From: a virus
DNA: 28,700 nucleotides
Strand: one strand, 5' to 3'
Virus record (IMG/VR): IMGVR_UViG_3300025122_002815
Span: 1-28,700 of that record
Shown here: in pieces, positions 4,226 to 26,703 of the stretch
How positions within the stretch are numbered: the stretch's first letter is position 1
Layout: each line of letters begins with the position of its first letter
The notes under the pieces: model-generated
What the model saw: only the letters and a program-made list of their open reading frames with translations
Database searches by the model: none
Told to the model about the DNA's origin: nothing
Translations under genes and position numbers: made by a program

Positions 4226-5410
4226 TTATTTTCTAAATACAAAAATAGGCTCAAAATGTCCCTCATTCTTCCCAACTCTTAAAAATTCATTGTTAGGCAA
4301 AACAATCTTCCATATTTTTTCTATCTTCCATTCCTTCTTACAATAATTTAAAATATCATCTGCTATCTTAAATTGTTTAACATTTTTAATATTTATAGCT
4401 AATTTTCCCTCTTTTTTTAATATTCTCTTGCTCTGATTAATAATAACATAAACAAATTTTTCCAACCATTCTTGATATTCTGGATATTTATGATTACTTT
4501 GAGAAGGGTCAAAAGAATAATCTTCTAAAGAAAAATATGGGAAAGAAGAAAATATTAAATCATAATTATCTTCTTTTAAATCTAACATCACATTTTCAGC
4601 ATATCCTAAATCAAATTTATATTTAAATTTATATATTCTTTCTCCAAACATATCATATTTTTCTTTAAAAAAAGAAGCACATTTCATATTCCCAATTGCT
4701 GTATCTCCATCAGGATCTATTCCATGATAAAAAATATTTTTATTTGTAGAAATACAACCCAAAAATCTACTTGAAAAACCAGCACAAGGATCCAAAACTA
4801 TTCCATTTTCAGGAACATACTGATTACAAATAAATTTCGCAAAAATAGGACTAAAATTGGTTATTCCTCTTGTCTTATTTCTAGTCCTTAATATCCTTCT
4901 CATATTAGAATGATTAGGAGTCCACTTTAATTCTAAAATTCTATTAATACAATCTTTTAAATAATCATCATTTTCAAATGTTTCTTGAGGAGTTCTTAAT
5001 TTCTTACCTATCCCATAAGAGGCTTTTATCATATGAGGATGAAAATAATTAGCTAAATTAATTCCAACACTATTTTGTTTTATCTTGTCTTCATCTGTCT
5101 TAATCTTAGTCTTCATAAGACTATTCATTATTCTAATTTTTTTTTCATCATTAAAATTATAATGAGGATATCCACTTCTTCTATAATATTCAAATAATAT
5201 ATCAACAACCTGTTTTCTCCCTTCATCGGATTCTTGATATAATTTTAAAAGTTTTTTAAAATTATTGTTATCTATTTTATCTCCCATAAAACCTAAACCA
5301 CAGTGTCTTAAATATTCAGATTTTTTAAATCCGAAGAGGTTAGATTTTATTTTTATTATATTGTGAGTTCTTTCATCTACTCTTAAAATTATATTGTCAT
5401 CTTTTGTCAT
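4226..5410 (-). CDS. Ribbon-helix-helix domain fused to an adenine/cytosine DNA methyltransferase-like domain, 394 aa
   Basis: Residues about 5-40 (NIILRVDERTHNIIKIK, then GFKKSEYLRHCG) look like a ribbon-helix-helix DNA-binding domain: a short strand, then two helices. Residues 200-345 form a SAM-dependent methyltransferase core with motif I at 206-214 (LDPCAGFSS) and an acidic IDPDG strand at 231-235. The catalytic-loop position at 287-293 reads FSSFPYF, where amino-methyltransferases usually have (D/N/S)PPY. The end of the Rossmann core is at RILKKEGKLAINIKN. It starts at ATG with AGGAG upstream. A perfect 18-base palindrome lies just before the ribosome site and may be the operator bound by the N-terminal domain. 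It sits between the capsid and fibre genes beside a homing-endonuclease-like gene and is very AT-rich, consistent with acquired cargo. Likely role: modifying phage or host DNA; target unknown. Confidence 0.75.
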   Translation of the reverse strand: MTKDDNIILRVDERTHNIIKIKSNLFGFKKSEYLRHCGLGFMGDKIDNNNFKKLLKLYQESDEGRKQVVDILFEYYRRSGYPHYNFNDEKKIRIMNSLMKTKIKTDEDKIKQNSVGINLANYFHPHMIKASYGIGKKLRTPQETFENDDYLKDCINRILELKWTPNHSNMRRILRTRNKTRGITNFSPIFAKFICNQYVPENGIVLDPCAGFSSRFLGCISTNKNIFYHGIDPDGDTAIGNMKCASFFKEKYDMFGERIYKFKYKFDLGYAENVMLDLKEDNYDLIFSSFPYFSLEDYSFDPSQSNHKYPEYQEWLEKFVYVIINQSKRILKKEGKLAINIKNVKQFKIADDILNYCKKEWKIEKIWKIVLPNNEFLRVGKNEGHFEPIFVFRK

Positions 5411-5423
5411 CTAATTCTCCTAA

Positions 5424-5441
5424 AATCTGTATATACAGATT
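5424..5441. promoter_or_regulatory. Perfect 18-bp palindrome, candidate operator of the methyltransferase gene
   Basis: AATCTGTATATACAGATT reads identically on both strands. It lies a few bases upstream of the AGGAG ribosome site of a gene whose product begins with a ribbon-helix-helix domain, a fold that often binds palindromes to repress its own gene. The TATA-like centre may overlap a promoter. Binding is inferred. Confidence 0.5.
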
Positions 5442-5468
5442 GTACTGATATTTTTTCACTTTGGAACT

Positions 5469-6374
5469 TTATTTTTCCCATTCTGGAATAAAACGTTTAA
5501 ATATTCTTTTCATTCTTTTATATTCACTTCCCCCAATAATTATTAATTTTATTTTATATTTTTTCACTACTTGAGGAATAATTTTCTTATTTTTTATACA
5601 AACTTCACAATTACAATTCCATTCAAAAGAAGATTTAGCGTGCCCTTTTATTTCATAATACATATTTTTATGTGGCAAATATAAATCAGGGCAATAAGTA
5701 TAATCATTTTCTTTTATACTAATAGAAAATCTTTTATATTCATAATAGTATTTTATATTTTTCATTTTATAAATACGACATATATTAGCCTCCCATGTGC
5801 TGCGAACATAATGTCCTAAATCCTTTCTTTTCCCTCCCTTCCCTCTTCCTGCTTTCACAGGGCAAGAAACTCCATACATAGGATTATTTCTCCCCTTAAA
5901 ACTTCTTCTCTTTTCTATTCCCTTATCATATAAATCTCTATATTCCTCAGTAGAAAATTTTCCTTCATTCCAAGCTTTTTTGACTCCTATAGAAACATTT
6001 TTATTATGTATCTCTGTCTTTACCACTTTTTTCATAGATAAAGAAATGCGATTTTTTCTATTTTCTTCTAAATCCTCTTTAGATATATATTTTGAAATTG
6101 TAAGCATAATTTTTTCATAAGAAATTCCACAAAAAATGTTGTTAGATTTATAAAGCATTTCATGTATATTTTTTCTACTATCATTATTATTAACATATAA
6201 ATCTATAAGCTGTTTTTCTTCTTCTTGCAAAAATAAAGAATGATCATTATCTTTTGATTTTTTTAAATGATTAATTATTTTCCAATAAACATCATATCGT
6301 TTTTTACAAACAGGACAACTAGATAAAAACTGAAATTTTATATGATTTTTTAACAATGAATATCTTTTAACCAA
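5469..6374 (-). CDS. Free-standing homing endonuclease-like protein, NUMOD3-like plus PD-(D/E)XK-type domain, 301 aa
   Basis: A zinc-finger-like segment (C20, C23, H36, H45) opens the protein. It is followed by a basic region with the NNPMYG signature (163-168) typical of NUMOD3 DNA-binding motifs in phage homing endonucleases. The C-terminal part has E195 (RSTWEAN), the pair CPDLYL at 228-233 and YEIKG at 240-244, which fits a PD-(D/E)XK catalytic core. It ends with a CNCEVC cluster. The gene lies directly after the capsid gene terminator, as free-standing phage endonucleases often do. The start is uncertain: TTG at 6374 has no clear ribosome site, the frame stays open upstream for about 16 more codons without ATG, and the 5' end may be damaged. 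Flanking genes are uninterrupted, so it is not inside an intron. Confidence 0.7.
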   Translation of the reverse strand: MVKRYSLLKNHIKFQFLSSCPVCKKRYDVYWKIINHLKKSKDNDHSLFLQEEEKQLIDLYVNNNDSRKNIHEMLYKSNNIFCGISYEKIMLTISKYISKEDLEENRKNRISLSMKKVVKTEIHNKNVSIGVKKAWNEGKFSTEEYRDLYDKGIEKRRSFKGRNNPMYGVSCPVKAGRGKGGKRKDLGHYVRSTWEANICRIYKMKNIKYYYEYKRFSISIKENDYTYCPDLYLPHKNMYYEIKGHAKSSFEWNCNCEVCIKNKKIIPQVVKKYKIKLIIIGGSEYKRMKRIFKRFIPEWEK

Positions 6375-6640: not shown

Positions 6641-7507
6641 TTATGATACTTCAACTTCCTCAACGTTGATTCTTGAAAGAGCGTAATCGTTGATAACAAC
6701 AATTCCGATTTCCTCGTAAATCACCCAGCCAAGACGAAGTTTCTTTGGATCGTCAGCAGGAAGAACCGTAATATCCTGACGAATTGGGAAAGCCCCAACT
6801 GTTTCAGGAGAAGCAGCAACAAGAACCACATTAGTCAACATTCTTGACGAAACATGAATGTCGGCTGTCCACAAGTGACCATAAAGACCAGTTGTGATGA
6901 TTTCACGTTGCGTTGCTTCATCATAGAAGTCCTTACCAAAAGTTCTAATAGAAGCATACTGCCAGGCGTGTACAACTATTTTAGCAGCAACCAAATCATG
7001 CTGTTCAATTTGCTTAAAAGCTTCATTGATAGCTTGAACGGTTAAAGTTCCATAGTTAGTAATTATCTGTCCAGCAGGAACAGCAGCCAACAAAGCATTG
7101 AAGATATTAGTATCTTCTTCCTTTTGAATAGCTTCTTTGGCTTTGATCTGTGCTCTGTCTACGATGTAGAACCTACGAGCTTTGATTTCTGCCAAACGAA
7201 CTGTTGGGTTCGCAGCAATTTCAAAAGTAGGAACAAGAACCTCTTCGCCTTCTTGAATCTGATCAGGTACAGCACCTCTACGAGAAATAACCCATGCTAT
7301 AGCAGCAACGTCTCTCTCGTATCGAGCTAATGCTCCCTGTGGTAGTTCGTCTACCATCAAAAGTTTACGACCAACTGCTTGGTACTCCAAACTTCTACGA
7401 ATAGGCTCAACCATAGCCTGAGCCAAAGCCACTCTACCTTCATCAGTCTCAAGAGCTTGAGAAATTACTTGCTCTTTCTCTTGATCTGTCAATTTTTCCA
7501 TAGTCAT
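6641..7507 (-). CDS. Major capsid protein, HK97-type fold, 288 aa
   Basis: The shell-forming protein of the head. The second half reads like HK97-fold capsid proteins of large phages: a helix with VHAWQYASIRTFGKDFYD, then a GLYGHLWTADIHVSSRM strand region, then VLVAASPETVGAFPIRQDITVLP and a C-terminal strand WVIYEEIGIVVINDYALSRI. The N-terminal 50 residues are helical and charged and could be a delta-domain-like segment, though no cleavage site is obvious. It starts at ATG 7507 with AAAGGAG optimally spaced; a second ATG two codons later is less well placed. Its order after protease-scaffold and decoration protein, with a strong terminator behind it, is classical. GC content and codon use look higher than in the neighbouring cargo genes, as expected for a highly expressed gene. 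Confidence 0.9.
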   Translation of the reverse strand: MTMEKLTDQEKEQVISQALETDEGRVALAQAMVEPIRRSLEYQAVGRKLLMVDELPQGALARYERDVAAIAWVISRRGAVPDQIQEGEEVLVPTFEIAANPTVRLAEIKARRFYIVDRAQIKAKEAIQKEEDTNIFNALLAAVPAGQIITNYGTLTVQAINEAFKQIEQHDLVAAKIVVHAWQYASIRTFGKDFYDEATQREIITTGLYGHLWTADIHVSSRMLTNVVLVAASPETVGAFPIRQDITVLPADDPKKLRLGWVIYEEIGIVVINDYALSRINVEEVEVS

Positions 7508-21552: not shown

Positions 21553-22340
21553 CCTTTAACGTGTCGTGGAATTTTTACATTTGCAAGATCGTTAATAGTA
21601 TAACGCTGTACTTCTTTAGGATATTTTACTGCCCACTTTTCACTTGCGTGAGAAAATGCTCCCGAAATAGTAGTAAAATATTCACCACTAGGAGCATAAA
21701 CTTTAGCTTTAGGATCTTCTGGAAGTCTTTTTATACCAGAAAAAAATCTCTTCTTACCTTCTCTTGTTAAAGCTGGACCCACGACAATAAAATAGTCACC
21801 ATTAGTACTATAGTCGTGACCTTCCCATCTTTTATAAACTCCAGGTCCTATGTCTTTTTCAAATCTCTTTTTTAATTTGACAGACCTTTCGTGATAATGT
21901 TCTTTCCAATCAATTCCCCTGTCTTTTATTCTTTTTCTCCCTGCGATTTTTTTCATTTTTTTACTCGAAGATTGTAAGTTAATCCCCTCCATAGTTTGTT
22001 GAGAAGGAGCAATAGTAGAAATTATGCCACGATCATGATCGTCACGACCTACAGTTAAATCATAAAATTTTCCATCTTTACCTTTAGCTGTAACTATCGT
22101 GCCTTCAGGACGACCCCCTCCTAATTCTTGAATTCTACGAGGCTCAAAAGCAGATCCGAATTGTCTAACTACATCTAAGTCGTATCCATAACCATTGTTT
22201 AAAATAGATTGTGCTATCTTTGTTTCTGAGCTAACGTGAAGAGGACTATATGGAGAAAAATAACCATACTTATTAAAATTATCTATAAGTTCCTTACCTG
22301 TACAAGAATTAACATATTTTTTTAAATTAAATTTACTCAT
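21549..22340 (-). CDS. Unknown 263-aa protein whose 3' end abuts an insertion element
   Basis: It starts MSKFNLKKYVNSCTG, weakly like the FNLKK tags, and overlaps the portal gene stop by eight bases, implying coupled translation. The middle is basic (SSKKMKKIAGRKRIKDRG, SVKLKKRFEKD). A C-terminal alpha/beta part reads DYFIVVGPALTREGKKRFFSG and AKVYAPSGEYFTTISGAFSHASEKW. No family is recognised. The TGA stop falls within the TTCAA of the IS right end, so the original protein was probably longer and was cut by the insertion. Confidence 0.7.
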   Translation of the reverse strand: MSKFNLKKYVNSCTGKELIDNFNKYGYFSPYSPLHVSSETKIAQSILNNGYGYDLDVVRQFGSAFEPRRIQELGGGRPEGTIVTAKGKDGKFYDLTVGRDDHDRGIISTIAPSQQTMEGINLQSSSKKMKKIAGRKRIKDRGIDWKEHYHERSVKLKKRFEKDIGPGVYKRWEGHDYSTNGDYFIVVGPALTREGKKRFFSGIKRLPEDPKAKVYAPSGEYFTTISGAFSHASEKWAVKYPKEVQRYTINDLANVKIPRHVKG

Positions 22341-25300
22341 CAGCTACAATTCCTATTAAAAATAAATGTCCATAACCATTAAGTTCGCAAACTTTAATTC
22401 CTATTTTTTCTTTATTGTCTTCAATATATTCATCAGCAGAAGCATATTTCTTCATTCCTTCACTACTACTTCTCTTTTTCATGTCTTTAGCAGCATCTAC
22501 AACATTTTTTTGAATTACATCTTTTACTGCATCAAAATGATCTTCTAGTGCATTTTCTTTAAATCTTAAAATTCTCCATCCTATGTTTGCTAATTTTTGA
22601 TCTCTAAGTTGATCTCTTTCTAAGAAATCTTCTCTCTGATGCCATATCTCTCCGTCTGCTTCTAATCCTACCCCAATTCGAGGATAAGCAAAATCTAACA
22701 TAAATGCGTTTTGTTCTCCTGGAACCTTAACAGAATATTGTCCAAATAATTCATAAGGAACATTTAAAGATTGTAAAAGTTTATACATTTTTTGTTCTAG
22801 TTTAGTTAGTTTTATCATCTTAGAAGGAGGACCTTGTTGTTGTTCTTCTATTGCTTTTTTGTCTCCTCTCTTTCCTATCATAGGTAATTTAGTTTCTGCT
22901 GCTGCTCCCATCGGAGCACCCATTCCACCGCCCATGCCTCCACCCATTCCTCCACCCATTTCTCCACCAGGAGCACCCATTCCACCAGGAGGAGCACCAC
23001 CCATTCCACCACCCATATCTCCACCAAGAGGAGCACCACCCATTCCACCCATATCTCCACCCATTCCACCCATTCCACCCATTCCACCACCCAAAGGACC
23101 CCCACCTTGAGCAGAAGGAATCATCCCTGAAGCACTAGCCATGATTTGTTCATCTCTTATTTTTTGAACCTCTTCGTCATATTCGTCATAATCTAGATCT
23201 AATTCTTCAAGAACAGTTTGAGCAGACACGACTCCTTTATCCCACAACTGTATTAAAGTTTGAATTTTACTTGTTTTATCTCTTAGCTGTAAATCATTCC
23301 AAACAAGTCTTGGATGTAAATATACTCTCTTTTTTAATTCTTTACTTTCTTCTTCATCTACAAAACCTTGCATCATAGCAATAGGTAAAAAGATGTGTTT
23401 TTCAATCCAAGATTTTAATTTATTTCTCCAATTATCTAACCTTCTTATTAAAACTTCTACTCCAACCTGGGCCGCAGAATTACCCTGAATGCTAACCTTG
23501 CCATTCCTCATTGTCACGAAAAGCTCATGAGGAACTGAAAAACAATATATTTTTCCAGAATAAGGAACCCTAGTTATTTCTTTCCCAATATATTTTTTAG
23601 ACTTAGATGCTAAGGTAGGTTTTCTACCTTTAAATCCCTTAGAAATATAAGCAACATATTGCTGAAGTCTTGTTTTATATTCATAACCTTTTTTATTAAA
23701 ATATTTTTTATTACTTTTTTTCTTATTTATTTTACTAATTTTAGTTACATATCCACACTTAAATGCTATCTCAGCAAAATCATTAGATAATTGCTTGCTA
23801 GATGTATAGTAAGAAATTCTTGGCATTTTTCTATCTTCACTCTCTGTTATACATCCATCACCATTTATCATAGCTTCAATAACTATTTCTAAACATTCTG
23901 GAACAAGATTTTTAACAAAAGTAGAAAGCCTTTTAGTAGCAGAATTATCCCCAAAATTTTCTTTTAAATGTTGCGACAATTCTGGCTTATATACAGAAAC
24001 ATCTACATCACTATCATAATAAGTAGAAAACATATTATTAAATAAGTTATCTATATCGTCTCTAGCTTTTCCATCTTTAGTCTGTCCAATCGAAACTGTA
24101 GTATATTTTCTTATCCTATTCTTTCTCTTTTCTTCTTTAACCCATCCTTCAGAGACATAATAACCAACCATTTTACAATAATCATATATGGAATATTTTT
24201 CATCTCCTATCCGAACTGACTCAACATATTTCCCATCATAACCATCTACTGCTCCTATAAAACTAGCTCTTGGGCGAACATCTTCTGCTTTTATAAATCT
24301 AAACTCATCAGAATCTTTCTTAGCACTCCACATTCTATGATTCGGAGTAACTAAAACATCTATTTTATCAGTATTAAAAAGAACCATCTCCCCATTATAA
24401 TCATAGACCATTTTTTCAAAAGGAAGATGGTATTCAATCAACTTTGATTCGGGATTATAACAAGCTATTCTGTCTTCATTTGGATCTATTTCCCAATGAG
24501 GTTTAAATCCAGAATCTGTAAGAGTAAGAGTATCTTCGCTAAAACAATATCCGCTCATTTCACCATTAAGAATAGCTTGGTTCAACATTAAACCATCTAA
24601 TAATTCTTTTCCTACACCTTCAAGATCTTGATTTATATTATGAATCTTGCCAGTATTTCCCTGAATAGAAATATGACCATTTCTCATTGTAACAAAAAAA
24701 CCAGTTGATGTTGTAAAACACCAAACCTTTCCCTTATATCTTTTGGCAAAAATATGTCTTTTTTCAACTCTTGGCATACTACCTTTCCCTATACCATCTA
24801 TATTACAGTTAATTCTATATATAGGTTCACAAATTGTTCTTGACAAGGTTGGCGAATAACCAGCTTTGAACATAATTTCAAGAATATCTTCTGCCAGTTC
24901 TTTACCTTTAATTTTTATTTGTACAGAAACACAATTTTTATAATGATGCCAAGATGCGTCTCCCTTACAAAAAGATTCTATTAATATTCTTAGTTTATTG
25001 GGTGAAAGATTTTTTACAAAATTAGGTATCTTTTTGTCCGAAGAATTAGAACCGAACCATTCTTTTATTTGCCATGCTATATCTTTTCTTAACACATCCC
25101 AAGTCGTAGCACGTCCATCGTATTCATATTTCGAATATTCGATACCAAGATCAGGCATCATATAATCTATTTCATCACAGATATTAGAATTCTTTACAGG
25201 ACATTGAGATATAGAAACTCTATATTGTCTTGCTGGCACATTATATGTTGTGTAACCTTCTGATAAATAATAACCAGCGTATTGTAAAAAAACATCTACA

Positions 25301-26703
25301 GGAACCTTATATCCACAAATATCAACAGATTCTATCTCTTCCCCTTTATAATTCGCAACACATTTTACATAACTGTCTCCCTTCCCAGATATTTTAGCAA
25401 AATCTTTTGCTTCTAATGTATATGCCGTTTTTAAATCTCTTTTATAACCCAACATTTTATGATTGGGTGTAACACAAATATCTACCTTATTCCCTTTAAA
25501 TTCTGTCATAAATCCGTCATAATCATATTCATAAAAATCAAGCGGTTTTTCATACTTCATCTCGTTTGTCTCAGGATCAAATACCATAATTTTTTCTTCT
25601 TCTCCAACCTCCCAATAATTTTTCCATCCAAGATCAGTAAGAACTTTTGTATCATCAGAATAACAAGCCCCATACCACTGATAGTCAAAAGCGTGGTGAG
25701 TAACAACAGTTAAATTAGGATCATTAGCAACAGCACCAAGTTGATTAACAATATCTTGTAGGTCTTCTGCTGTAGCAGGACGATCTTTTTCTCCAACTTT
25801 TACAACTCTAACTGGCAGGATAAGTCTTTCTGCAATAATCCAATTAGCAGTCATTATTTTAGTTTTGTAAGCAAGTATAGTGAACAACCTTTGTAACATA
25901 GAAGTTCCATAGGTTCCATATGCACTTGCATTATGTTTAATATGACTAATACATTTATCTGAGAGAGGAAGAGGTTGTCCAGAAAGAACAAGTTTTATAA
26001 GTTCTTGAGGTAAACTTTCGTAAGCTTCTTTAGGTTCTTTTCTTTGAACCATTATTCTAAGTTCTTCATCAGGAACTAGATAATATTTTGGTTTTTTAGC
26101 AAGAGGATTATCTCTAACTTCTATATAATCGGGATTAAGAACTTTTATATCTTTAAAAGTTCCGTCTTCATGTCTACATTGTTCTCCATCGCTAGTTTTT
26201 CCTTTCCCTCCGCAGACGGGGCAATCAATTTCTAGAAAGGGAAAGACATCTCCTATAAGAAAATATTCATGACTTATATCATCACATTTTTCTGGTAATT
26301 CTATTTCTTTAGCAAAATGTTCATAATATTTTAATATTTTTTTATCTTTACATTCTAATTTAAAACCGTTCATTGAAAAATTAGAATAGAAATCTACACC
26401 AGCAGCTACCTTTGGTTCATTTGTATAATAAAATCTTGCCCATTGGTAAATTTCTCTTCTCTTACTAGCAATTTGCCAGTTTTGAGGAGTGTGGAGAGGA
26501 GAAAAGAACATAGGCTGAGTCATTGCGATATTCGCACTTTGACCAGCAAATTGAGCATTTTTTGTGATAGGGAAATTTACTAACTGGGATTCTGGTAAAT
26601 TATCTTTATTGTTATCGGAGGATTTTATTTCATATCCTCCTGAAGCAATAACCATTCTTCTTTTATTTTTAGGGGAATTATCAGACAATATTAATTTAGC
26701 CAT
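22333..26703 (-). CDS. Portal protein with two inteins and a C-terminal Vsr/DUF559-like nuclease domain, 1456 aa
   Basis: The portal ring sits at the head vertex and passes DNA. Portal signatures are IYQWARFYYTNEPKVAAGVDFYSNF, KVLNPDYIEV, SMLQRLFTILAYKTKIMTANWIIAERLILPVRVV, and after splicing DLEGVGKELLDGLMLNQAILNGE joined to SAAQVGVEVLIRRLDNWRNK. A CPVCGGKGK/C176 cluster lies at 161-176. Inteins occupy residues 347-683 and 720-1075. Residues 1200-1265 are almost only Gly, Met, Ala and Pro. Residues about 1298-1400 form a PD-(D/E)XK-like domain of the Vsr/DUF559 type: LTKLEQKMYKLL, FMLDFAYP (D1337), GVGLEADGEIWHQ (E1348, D1350, H1355), RDQLRDQKL and GWRILRF. Spliced length would be 763 residues. 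The start has a GAGAG site. Confidence 0.88.
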   Translation of the reverse strand: MAKLILSDNSPKNKRRMVIASGGYEIKSSDNNKDNLPESQLVNFPITKNAQFAGQSANIAMTQPMFFSPLHTPQNWQIASKRREIYQWARFYYTNEPKVAAGVDFYSNFSMNGFKLECKDKKILKYYEHFAKEIELPEKCDDISHEYFLIGDVFPFLEIDCPVCGGKGKTSDGEQCRHEDGTFKDIKVLNPDYIEVRDNPLAKKPKYYLVPDEELRIMVQRKEPKEAYESLPQELIKLVLSGQPLPLSDKCISHIKHNASAYGTYGTSMLQRLFTILAYKTKIMTANWIIAERLILPVRVVKVGEKDRPATAEDLQDIVNQLGAVANDPNLTVVTHHAFDYQWYGACYSDDTKVLTDLGWKNYWEVGEEEKIMVFDPETNEMKYEKPLDFYEYDYDGFMTEFKGNKVDICVTPNHKMLGYKRDLKTAYTLEAKDFAKISGKGDSYVKCVANYKGEEIESVDICGYKVPVDVFLQYAGYYLSEGYTTYNVPARQYRVSISQCPVKNSNICDEIDYMMPDLGIEYSKYEYDGRATTWDVLRKDIAWQIKEWFGSNSSDKKIPNFVKNLSPNKLRILIESFCKGDASWHHYKNCVSVQIKIKGKELAEDILEIMFKAGYSPTLSRTICEPIYRINCNIDGIGKGSMPRVEKRHIFAKRYKGKVWCFTTSTGFFVTMRNGHISIQGNTGKIHNINQDLEGVGKELLDGLMLNQAILNGEMSGYCFSEDTLTLTDSGFKPHWEIDPNEDRIACYNPESKLIEYHLPFEKMVYDYNGEMVLFNTDKIDVLVTPNHRMWSAKKDSDEFRFIKAEDVRPRASFIGAVDGYDGKYVESVRIGDEKYSIYDYCKMVGYYVSEGWVKEEKRKNRIRKYTTVSIGQTKDGKARDDIDNLFNNMFSTYYDSDVDVSVYKPELSQHLKENFGDNSATKRLSTFVKNLVPECLEIVIEAMINGDGCITESEDRKMPRISYYTSSKQLSNDFAEIAFKCGYVTKISKINKKKSNKKYFNKKGYEYKTRLQQYVAYISKGFKGRKPTLASKSKKYIGKEITRVPYSGKIYCFSVPHELFVTMRNGKVSIQGNSAAQVGVEVLIRRLDNWRNKLKSWIEKHIFLPIAMMQGFVDEEESKELKKRVYLHPRLVWNDLQLRDKTSKIQTLIQLWDKGVVSAQTVLEELDLDYDEYDEEVQKIRDEQIMASASGMIPSAQGGGPLGGGMGGMGGMGGDMGGMGGAPLGGDMGGGMGGAPPGGMGAPGGEMGGGMGGGMGGGMGAPMGAAAETKLPMIGKRGDKKAIEEQQQGPPSKMIKLTKLEQKMYKLLQSLNVPYELFGQYSVKVPGEQNAFMLDFAYPRIGVGLEADGEIWHQREDFLERDQLRDQKLANIGWRILRFKENALEDHFDAVKDVIQKNVVDAAKDMKKRSSSEGMKKYASADEYIEDNKEKIGIKVCELNGYGHLFLIGIVADE
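22909..23106 (-). repeat. Gly/Met-rich low-complexity linker in the portal gene
   Basis: Short degenerate repeats of GGMGGMGG, GGDMGGGMGG and GGAPPGGMGAP type connect the portal body to the nuclease-like domain. It is likely a flexible linker and prone to replication slippage. The long open frames on other strands and frames here are composition artefacts. Confidence 0.9.
23479..24546 (-). mobile_element. Portal intein 2, LAGLIDADG-type, 356 aa
   Basis: Block A starts at Cys720 (CFSEDTLTLTDSGFKPHWEI), block B has KIDVLVTPNHRMW, the endonuclease helices are MVGYYVSEGW and VIEAMINGDGC, and the end is FVTMRNGKVSIQGN with Ser+1. The penultimate residue is Gly, not His, as in the related class ending NGKxxxxGN. 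Removing it joins GEMSGY to SAAQVG, a natural portal sequence. Confidence 0.93.
24655..25665 (-). mobile_element. Portal intein 1, LAGLIDADG-type, 337 aa
   Basis: Block A starts at Cys347 (CYSDDTKVLTDLGWKNYWEV), block B has KVDICVTPNHKML, the endonuclease helices are YAGYYLSEGY and LIESFCKGDAS, and the end is FVTMRNGHISIQGN with Thr+1. It is clearly homologous to portal intein 2, and only 36 extein residues separate them. Removing it joins YQWYGA to TGKIHN. Confidence 0.93.

Follow-up and report, generated by a model that had tools for sequence, protein, structure and literature searches.

Portal Proteins with a Predicted Vsr/DUF559 Nuclease Domain in One Group of Very Large, Uncultured Phages

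The Portal Precursor Gene and Its Neighbors

The window, that is the whole 28,700-nucleotide stretch of viral DNA analysed here, carries the gene for a portal precursor within a head gene cassette, in which a protease-like ORF and then the major head protein follow downstream (Table 1). The portal identity of the 1456-aa ORF is given by its match to PHROG family phrog_16240 (E 4e-31) and by its similarity to gp14 of Bacillus phage G (32% identity over 93% of the body, E 4e-72). The original prediction, made from the sequence alone, described a portal fused to a Vsr/DUF559-like nuclease; the fusion is borne out, but two inteins that interrupt the portal body had gone unnoticed. Once both are removed, the mature portal comes to ~763 aa and aligns end to end with that of the relative L001. 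Wholly intein-free portals are found in the relatives L014 and L004, and contig IMGVR_UViG_3300033145_003233 encodes an intein-free portal of 762 aa.

Table 1. Features of the window; residue numbers are those of the portal precursor
Feature	Position	Strand	Basis or remark
Major head protein	6641-7507		
ORF, 2296 aa	8162-15052		Weak head-maturation-protease match; intein (Intein_splicing E 8e-9); long remainder
Portal precursor ORF, 1456 aa	22333..26703	(-)	Body, two inteins, Gly/Met linker, Vsr/DUF559 domain
Extein 1, portal body N-terminal part, aa 1-346	25666..26703	(-)	Alignment with intein-free L014 and L004, also L001
Intein 1, aa 347-683	24655..25665	(-)	Missing in L014 and L004; boundaries set by extein alignment
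Extein 2, aa 684-719	24547..24654	(-)	Extein alignment
Intein 2, LAGLIDADG type, aa 720-1075	23479..24546	(-)	Pfam LAGLIDADG_3 E 7e-11; extein alignment
Extein 3, portal body C-terminal part, aa 1076-1186	23146..23478	(-)	Alignment with L014, L004 and L001
Gly/Met/Pro-rich linker, aa 1187-1294, predicted disordered	22822..23145	(-)	pLDDT <50 in L014 model
K[RK]G motif inside linker	22864-22872	(-)	Conserved in 56/70 portals
Predicted Vsr/DUF559 PD-(D/E)XK nuclease domain, aa 1295-1410	22474..22821	(-)	Pfam, AlphaFold2, Foldseek
Candidate catalytic E1303 (domain E9)	22795-22797	(-)	
Candidate catalytic D1337 (domain D43)	22693-22695	(-)	
Candidate catalytic E1348 (domain E54)	22660-22662	(-)	
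Candidate catalytic D1350	22654-22656	(-)	
Candidate catalytic H1355 (domain H61)	22639-22641	(-)	
Candidate catalytic D1364 (domain D70)	22612-22614	(-)	
Candidate catalytic D1368 (domain D74)	22600-22602	(-)	
C-terminal extension past nuclease domain	22336..22473	(-)	Variable; terminal beta hairpin predicted

The linker between the portal body and the nuclease domain is ~108 residues long in the window portal and ranges from 87 to 141 residues (median 107) across 70 portals, with median contents of 34% Gly and 12% Met. A model of the full-length L014 portal is poor overall (pLDDT 51), with a well-ordered nuclease domain and a disordered linker. Two further genes, which may be mobile cargo, lie at 4226-6374, between the major head protein and the window end; one encodes an N6/N4 DNA methyltransferase, the other a zinc-finger protein whose C-terminus is Holliday-junction-resolvase-like.

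Family and Fold of the C-terminal Domain

The portal ORF matches Pfam family DUF559 (PF04480) with an E value of 8e-7 and a score of 29.3 bits (cut-off 20.6). The isolated domain gives E 3.1e-8, and the window scores span 29.3-33.9 bits. DUF559 and MTES_1575 are the only Pfam families that the domain matches, and the DUF559 score lies above the cut-off in all 17 relatives scanned. The motifs on which the domain had been recognized are all in place: the LTxLE start, here LTKLE beginning at 22809; LDFAYP, containing D1337; and GLEADGEIWH, containing E1348 and H1355, with GWRILRF after it. The interval of 22504-22812 first given for the domain is correct in location and slightly too short on both sides. 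An internal translation start that would yield the free domain was considered and rejected, as the Met preceding LTKLE is not conserved.

An AlphaFold2 model of the domain, built on an alignment of 17 sequences, has a pLDDT of 82 and a predicted element order of helix, three strands, helix, strand, helix. In a Foldseek comparison with the PDB, PvuRTs1I and I-Bth0305I matched at E ~1e-4 or better, followed by AbaSI and E. coli Vsr (1VSR and 1CW0, E 2e-3). The match to the homing endonuclease I-Bth0305I covers most of its target (TM 0.82 by target length, E 1e-4). An independent sequence profile search also recovered the sequence of the I-Bth0305I structure (E 5e-4), together with a Neisseria endonuclease-like protein. 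Among the best 50 viral fold matches none is named as a portal; those with names are DUF559 proteins and homing and restriction endonucleases. The modelled fold is of the Vsr-type PD-(D/E)XK class, with an alpha-beta-beta-beta-alpha-beta core superposable on Vsr or I-Bth0305I, in agreement with the kinship first proposed and contrary to the structural outcome, no PD-(D/E)XK fold, that would have refuted it.

Distribution and Origin of the Fusion

Relatives were collected by searching with the portal body alone, so that the search was blind to the tail, and gave ~170 loci before duplicate removal. A tree of 96 distinct portals splits into groups of 79 and 17 across a branch of length 1.6 with SH-aLRT support of 100; the exact placement of L181, which sits on a very long branch, is unsure. 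The Vsr domain is present in every portal of the larger group, hereafter the VSR clade, whose C-terminus lies on the contig (74/74), the other five of the 79 being cut by contig ends. It is present in none of the 17 outgroup portals, which include phage G and its relatives and the Gly-rich-tail group L152-L156; the search patterns were built on phage G and the clade with the domain, and further outgroups may have been missed. Because every complete portal of the clade carries the domain, its presence there is not due to chance. Given this complete presence and the domain-free outgroup, the domain was gained once, and no loss is seen. The search for other portals with this C-terminal domain, suggested along with the original prediction, thus recovered a whole clade.

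The clade includes contigs of 548, 494, 476, 371 and 334 kb, lengths that identify its members as huge phages. These very large phages are relatives of Bacillus phage G and are uncultured; a set of 50,697 phage records contained no cultured member, and a search of the same records with the domain likewise gave no match. A second DUF559 match lies in a separate 303-aa ORF, away from the portal, on two VSR-clade contigs (G020:C1:222737-222967 and G021:C1:10384-10614, the contigs of L158 and L159).

Conservation of the Active Site

The candidate catalytic residues E9, D43, E54, H61, D70, R73 and D74 are identical in 70 of 70 distinct uninterrupted domains, so that the presumed catalytic acids are indeed retained as a pattern; G57, L77, G81, W82 and R86 are invariant as well. 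Pairwise identity of the domain spans 29-95% (median 46%) in a set of 59 domains. The dN/dS ratio (omega) of the domain in pairs of close relatives is 0.016-0.107, similar to that of the portal body, and domain and body identities are correlated among intein-free portals (r 0.88). As to the suggestion that an endonuclease gene had been captured beside the portal, a capture did take place, once and long ago, but its product has since become a permanent component of the portal protein under purifying selection.

Six contigs (L076, L082, L085, L090, L094 and L131) carry an intein within the domain, between the Glu and the Cys of the ExDG motif; the L085 contig stops inside this intein. As a rule, the motifs in which inteins persist are indispensable to the host protein. 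Judged by residue invariance, low omega and the inteins in ExDG, the putative active site is needed by the phage. The domain is likely to have nuclease activity, and since its candidate catalytic residues are the same throughout the clade, the portal is probably a DNA gate that also cuts DNA. The E-C-DG site itself is an intein homing site within the nuclease active site, empty in L105, L130 and L133 and filled in L076, L082, L090, L094 and L131, with the Cys as the +1 residue.

Terminase and Other Packaging Nucleases

In the relative with the 548-kb contig, the terminase gene lies ~12 kb upstream of the portal gene on the same strand. Searches for the large terminase subunit (TerL) with Terminase_6N and with phage G gp1 gave no match, whereas a phrog_2 search did find TerLs, and nine of these, when aligned, keep the Walker A, Walker B and RuvC-like nuclease Asp motifs by our own motif assignment. 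As the terminases retain nuclease motifs of their own, the portal nuclease would be an additional one. Replacement of the terminase nuclease by the Vsr domain is ruled out by the same Asp motifs. The TerL of L031 (L031:439-3537) has an intein in its C-terminal nuclease motif (KSDD), another conserved motif holding an intein.

Genes resembling T4 gp4, a TnsA-like nuclease, were not detected in VSR-clade contigs under a search in which the T4 control was positive, and they are also missing from huge phages that lack the Vsr domain. As neither side of the split has such genes, simple replacement of gp4 by the domain is not supported. RuvC was found in both VSR-less huge phages tested (phage G and one other) and is missing from five large VSR-clade contigs; the contrast, which would favor a packaging role for the domain, is weak, as it sets two contigs against five that a single tree branch separates and endonuclease VII is encoded on the 548-kb VSR-clade contig, and it may reflect one historical event. 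The resolvases RusA and Hjc were searched for and none was found.

A Possible Role in DNA Packaging

Portals are usually seen as channels and headful sensors, with the terminase or stand-alone proteins credited with the nuclease tasks of packaging. The reading that we favor, with roughly even confidence, is that a ring of portal-tethered nucleases has become fixed in this huge-phage clade and works in cis to process the viral genome while it is packaged, beside the terminase nuclease. The location of the portal gene in a head gene cassette gives a packaging context. Each portal subunit, presumably 12 of them, would bear a nuclease on a disordered tether of ~100 residues past its crown-side C-terminus; fully extended, the tether is estimated to span 30-40 nm. 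While the genome is being packaged, the domain would cut or nick DNA irregularities that halt the motor or stand in its way, such as branches, nicks, mismatches or a protruding end, and clearing them would allow a very long genome to be loaded and the head to be closed. If cutting were confined to particular DNA structures or sites, the sparing of the packaged genome would be accounted for.

Precedents for nucleases acting in packaging, there in trans, exist in phage T4, where the head-completion nuclease gp4, a DNase of restriction endonuclease fold, is required for packaging (PMC7824862) and the gp49 resolvase, bound to the portal, frees stalled branched DNA (PMC9958956, PMC10893049). Of the two roles that the original prediction offered for the nuclease, packaging and ejection, packaging is the better supported. 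As for the position of the domain, the chains of portals terminate, at their C-terminal side, in the crown. The T4 portal has its stem, wing and crown inside the capsid, with the crown and wing touching the DNA (PMC9958956). From these two points, the Vsr domain is probably on the inner side of the capsid. This placement also speaks against a packaging role: as the C-terminus of known portals is inside the capsid, the domain may lie past the point at which a branch stalls, beside the genome already packaged.

The same placement could suit a nuclease of ejection or host takeover, kept inactive in the capsid or freed by the prohead protease, which would enter the host with the DNA, or work on DNA that arrives as infection begins, and cut host or competitor DNA. 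We consider this unlikely, although several observations are compatible with it: the T4 crown and wing are in contact with DNA within the capsid (PMC9958956), a prohead-protease-like gene is present in the cassette, 56 of 70 portals have the K[RK]G motif between linker and domain, and the methyltransferase of the window could mark phage DNA. Against these stand the ~12 copies that a virion would hold and the expectation that a tethered domain stays with the virion, any cleavage signal being putative. The methyltransferase, along with the modification-dependent enzymes AbaSI and PvuRTs1I among the Vsr-fold relatives, would also fit a specificity gate that cuts foreign or unmodified DNA at the motor, or DNA of co-infecting elements, such that only phage DNA is loaded; this is improbable in our judgment, the methyltransferase being a feature of the window whose conservation in the clade would have to be assumed.

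A nuclease fold need not cleave, as shown by FASTKD4, which has a Vsr-like fold without cleavage (PMC11879112), and the domain could simply bind DNA and hold the last-packaged end. FASTKD4, however, has Asn in place of the catalytic His69 of Vsr, while the pattern here, His included, is invariant in all 70 domains, and we give a mere DNA grip little credence. The least likely alternative, to which we assign only a very slight chance, is a selfish homing endonuclease of VSR-like type that became joined to the portal by chance and continues to serve its own spread. Among solved structures the homing endonuclease I-Bth0305I is the closest relative, several phage proteins of the same fold are named homing endonucleases, and the portal gene is full of mobile inteins. 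However, there is no empty site among the 74 complete portals of the clade, the domain and the body are inherited together, and the portal neighborhoods examined contain no separate copy.

Relation to Known Systems

The best compact match in both structure and profile, I-Bth0305I (PDB 3R3P), shares the Vsr-type PD-(D/E)XK core but is a mobile intron protein, whereas the portal domain is the C-terminal part of a structural protein and vertically inherited. Mobility, with a seat in an intron, intein or fractured gene and empty sites among relatives, is a trait of VSR-like (EDxHD) homing endonucleases and is not found for the portal domain. With E. coli Vsr the domain has the predicted fold in common, as well as the apparent Asp and His of the active-site pattern. 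Vsr has a structural zinc site formed with Cys and His residues; this site is absent here, the window domain having no Cys, and there is no repair context. Proteins of the DUF559/MTES_1575 group are relatives at the family level, as seen from the Pfam scores.

Among packaging nucleases, T4 gp4 is a DNase of restriction endonuclease fold, as the portal domain would be, and acts in late head assembly, but it is a separate protein of a TnsA-like family; it matches PF08722 (TnsA-like N-terminal domain), whereas the portal domain does not, and the contigs are without a TnsA-like match. T4 gp49 (endonuclease VII), which sits on the portal gp20, is a nuclease at the portal that acts on packaging DNA, as the Vsr domain would be; it differs in its family, in its non-covalent association and in having a demonstrated resolvase activity. 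The combination of a portal with a Vsr domain was not reported in the open-access literature searched, and reports elsewhere are possible. The parts and the fold are known, and their combination appears new to that literature. With a predicted nuclease of invariant active-site pattern on all complete portals of the clade, DNA processing would be tied to the gate itself. The domain offers a small module for testing nuclease function at the portal, and it serves as a marker for a group of uncultured phages with contigs of up to 548 kb.

The closest named portal is gp14 of Bacillus phage G, with 30-35% identity in the body and a disordered Pro/Gly-rich tail in the same place, but without the nuclease domain. 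One phage-G-like portal ORF of 1016 aa (L143:5710-8757) continues for ~480 extra residues past the portal; its end resembles by eye gp15, the next gene in phage G, and would constitute a different kind of portal fusion. On another phage-G-like contig (L202:5779-11698) the portal is split into four ordered ORFs, as if by introns or other insertions.
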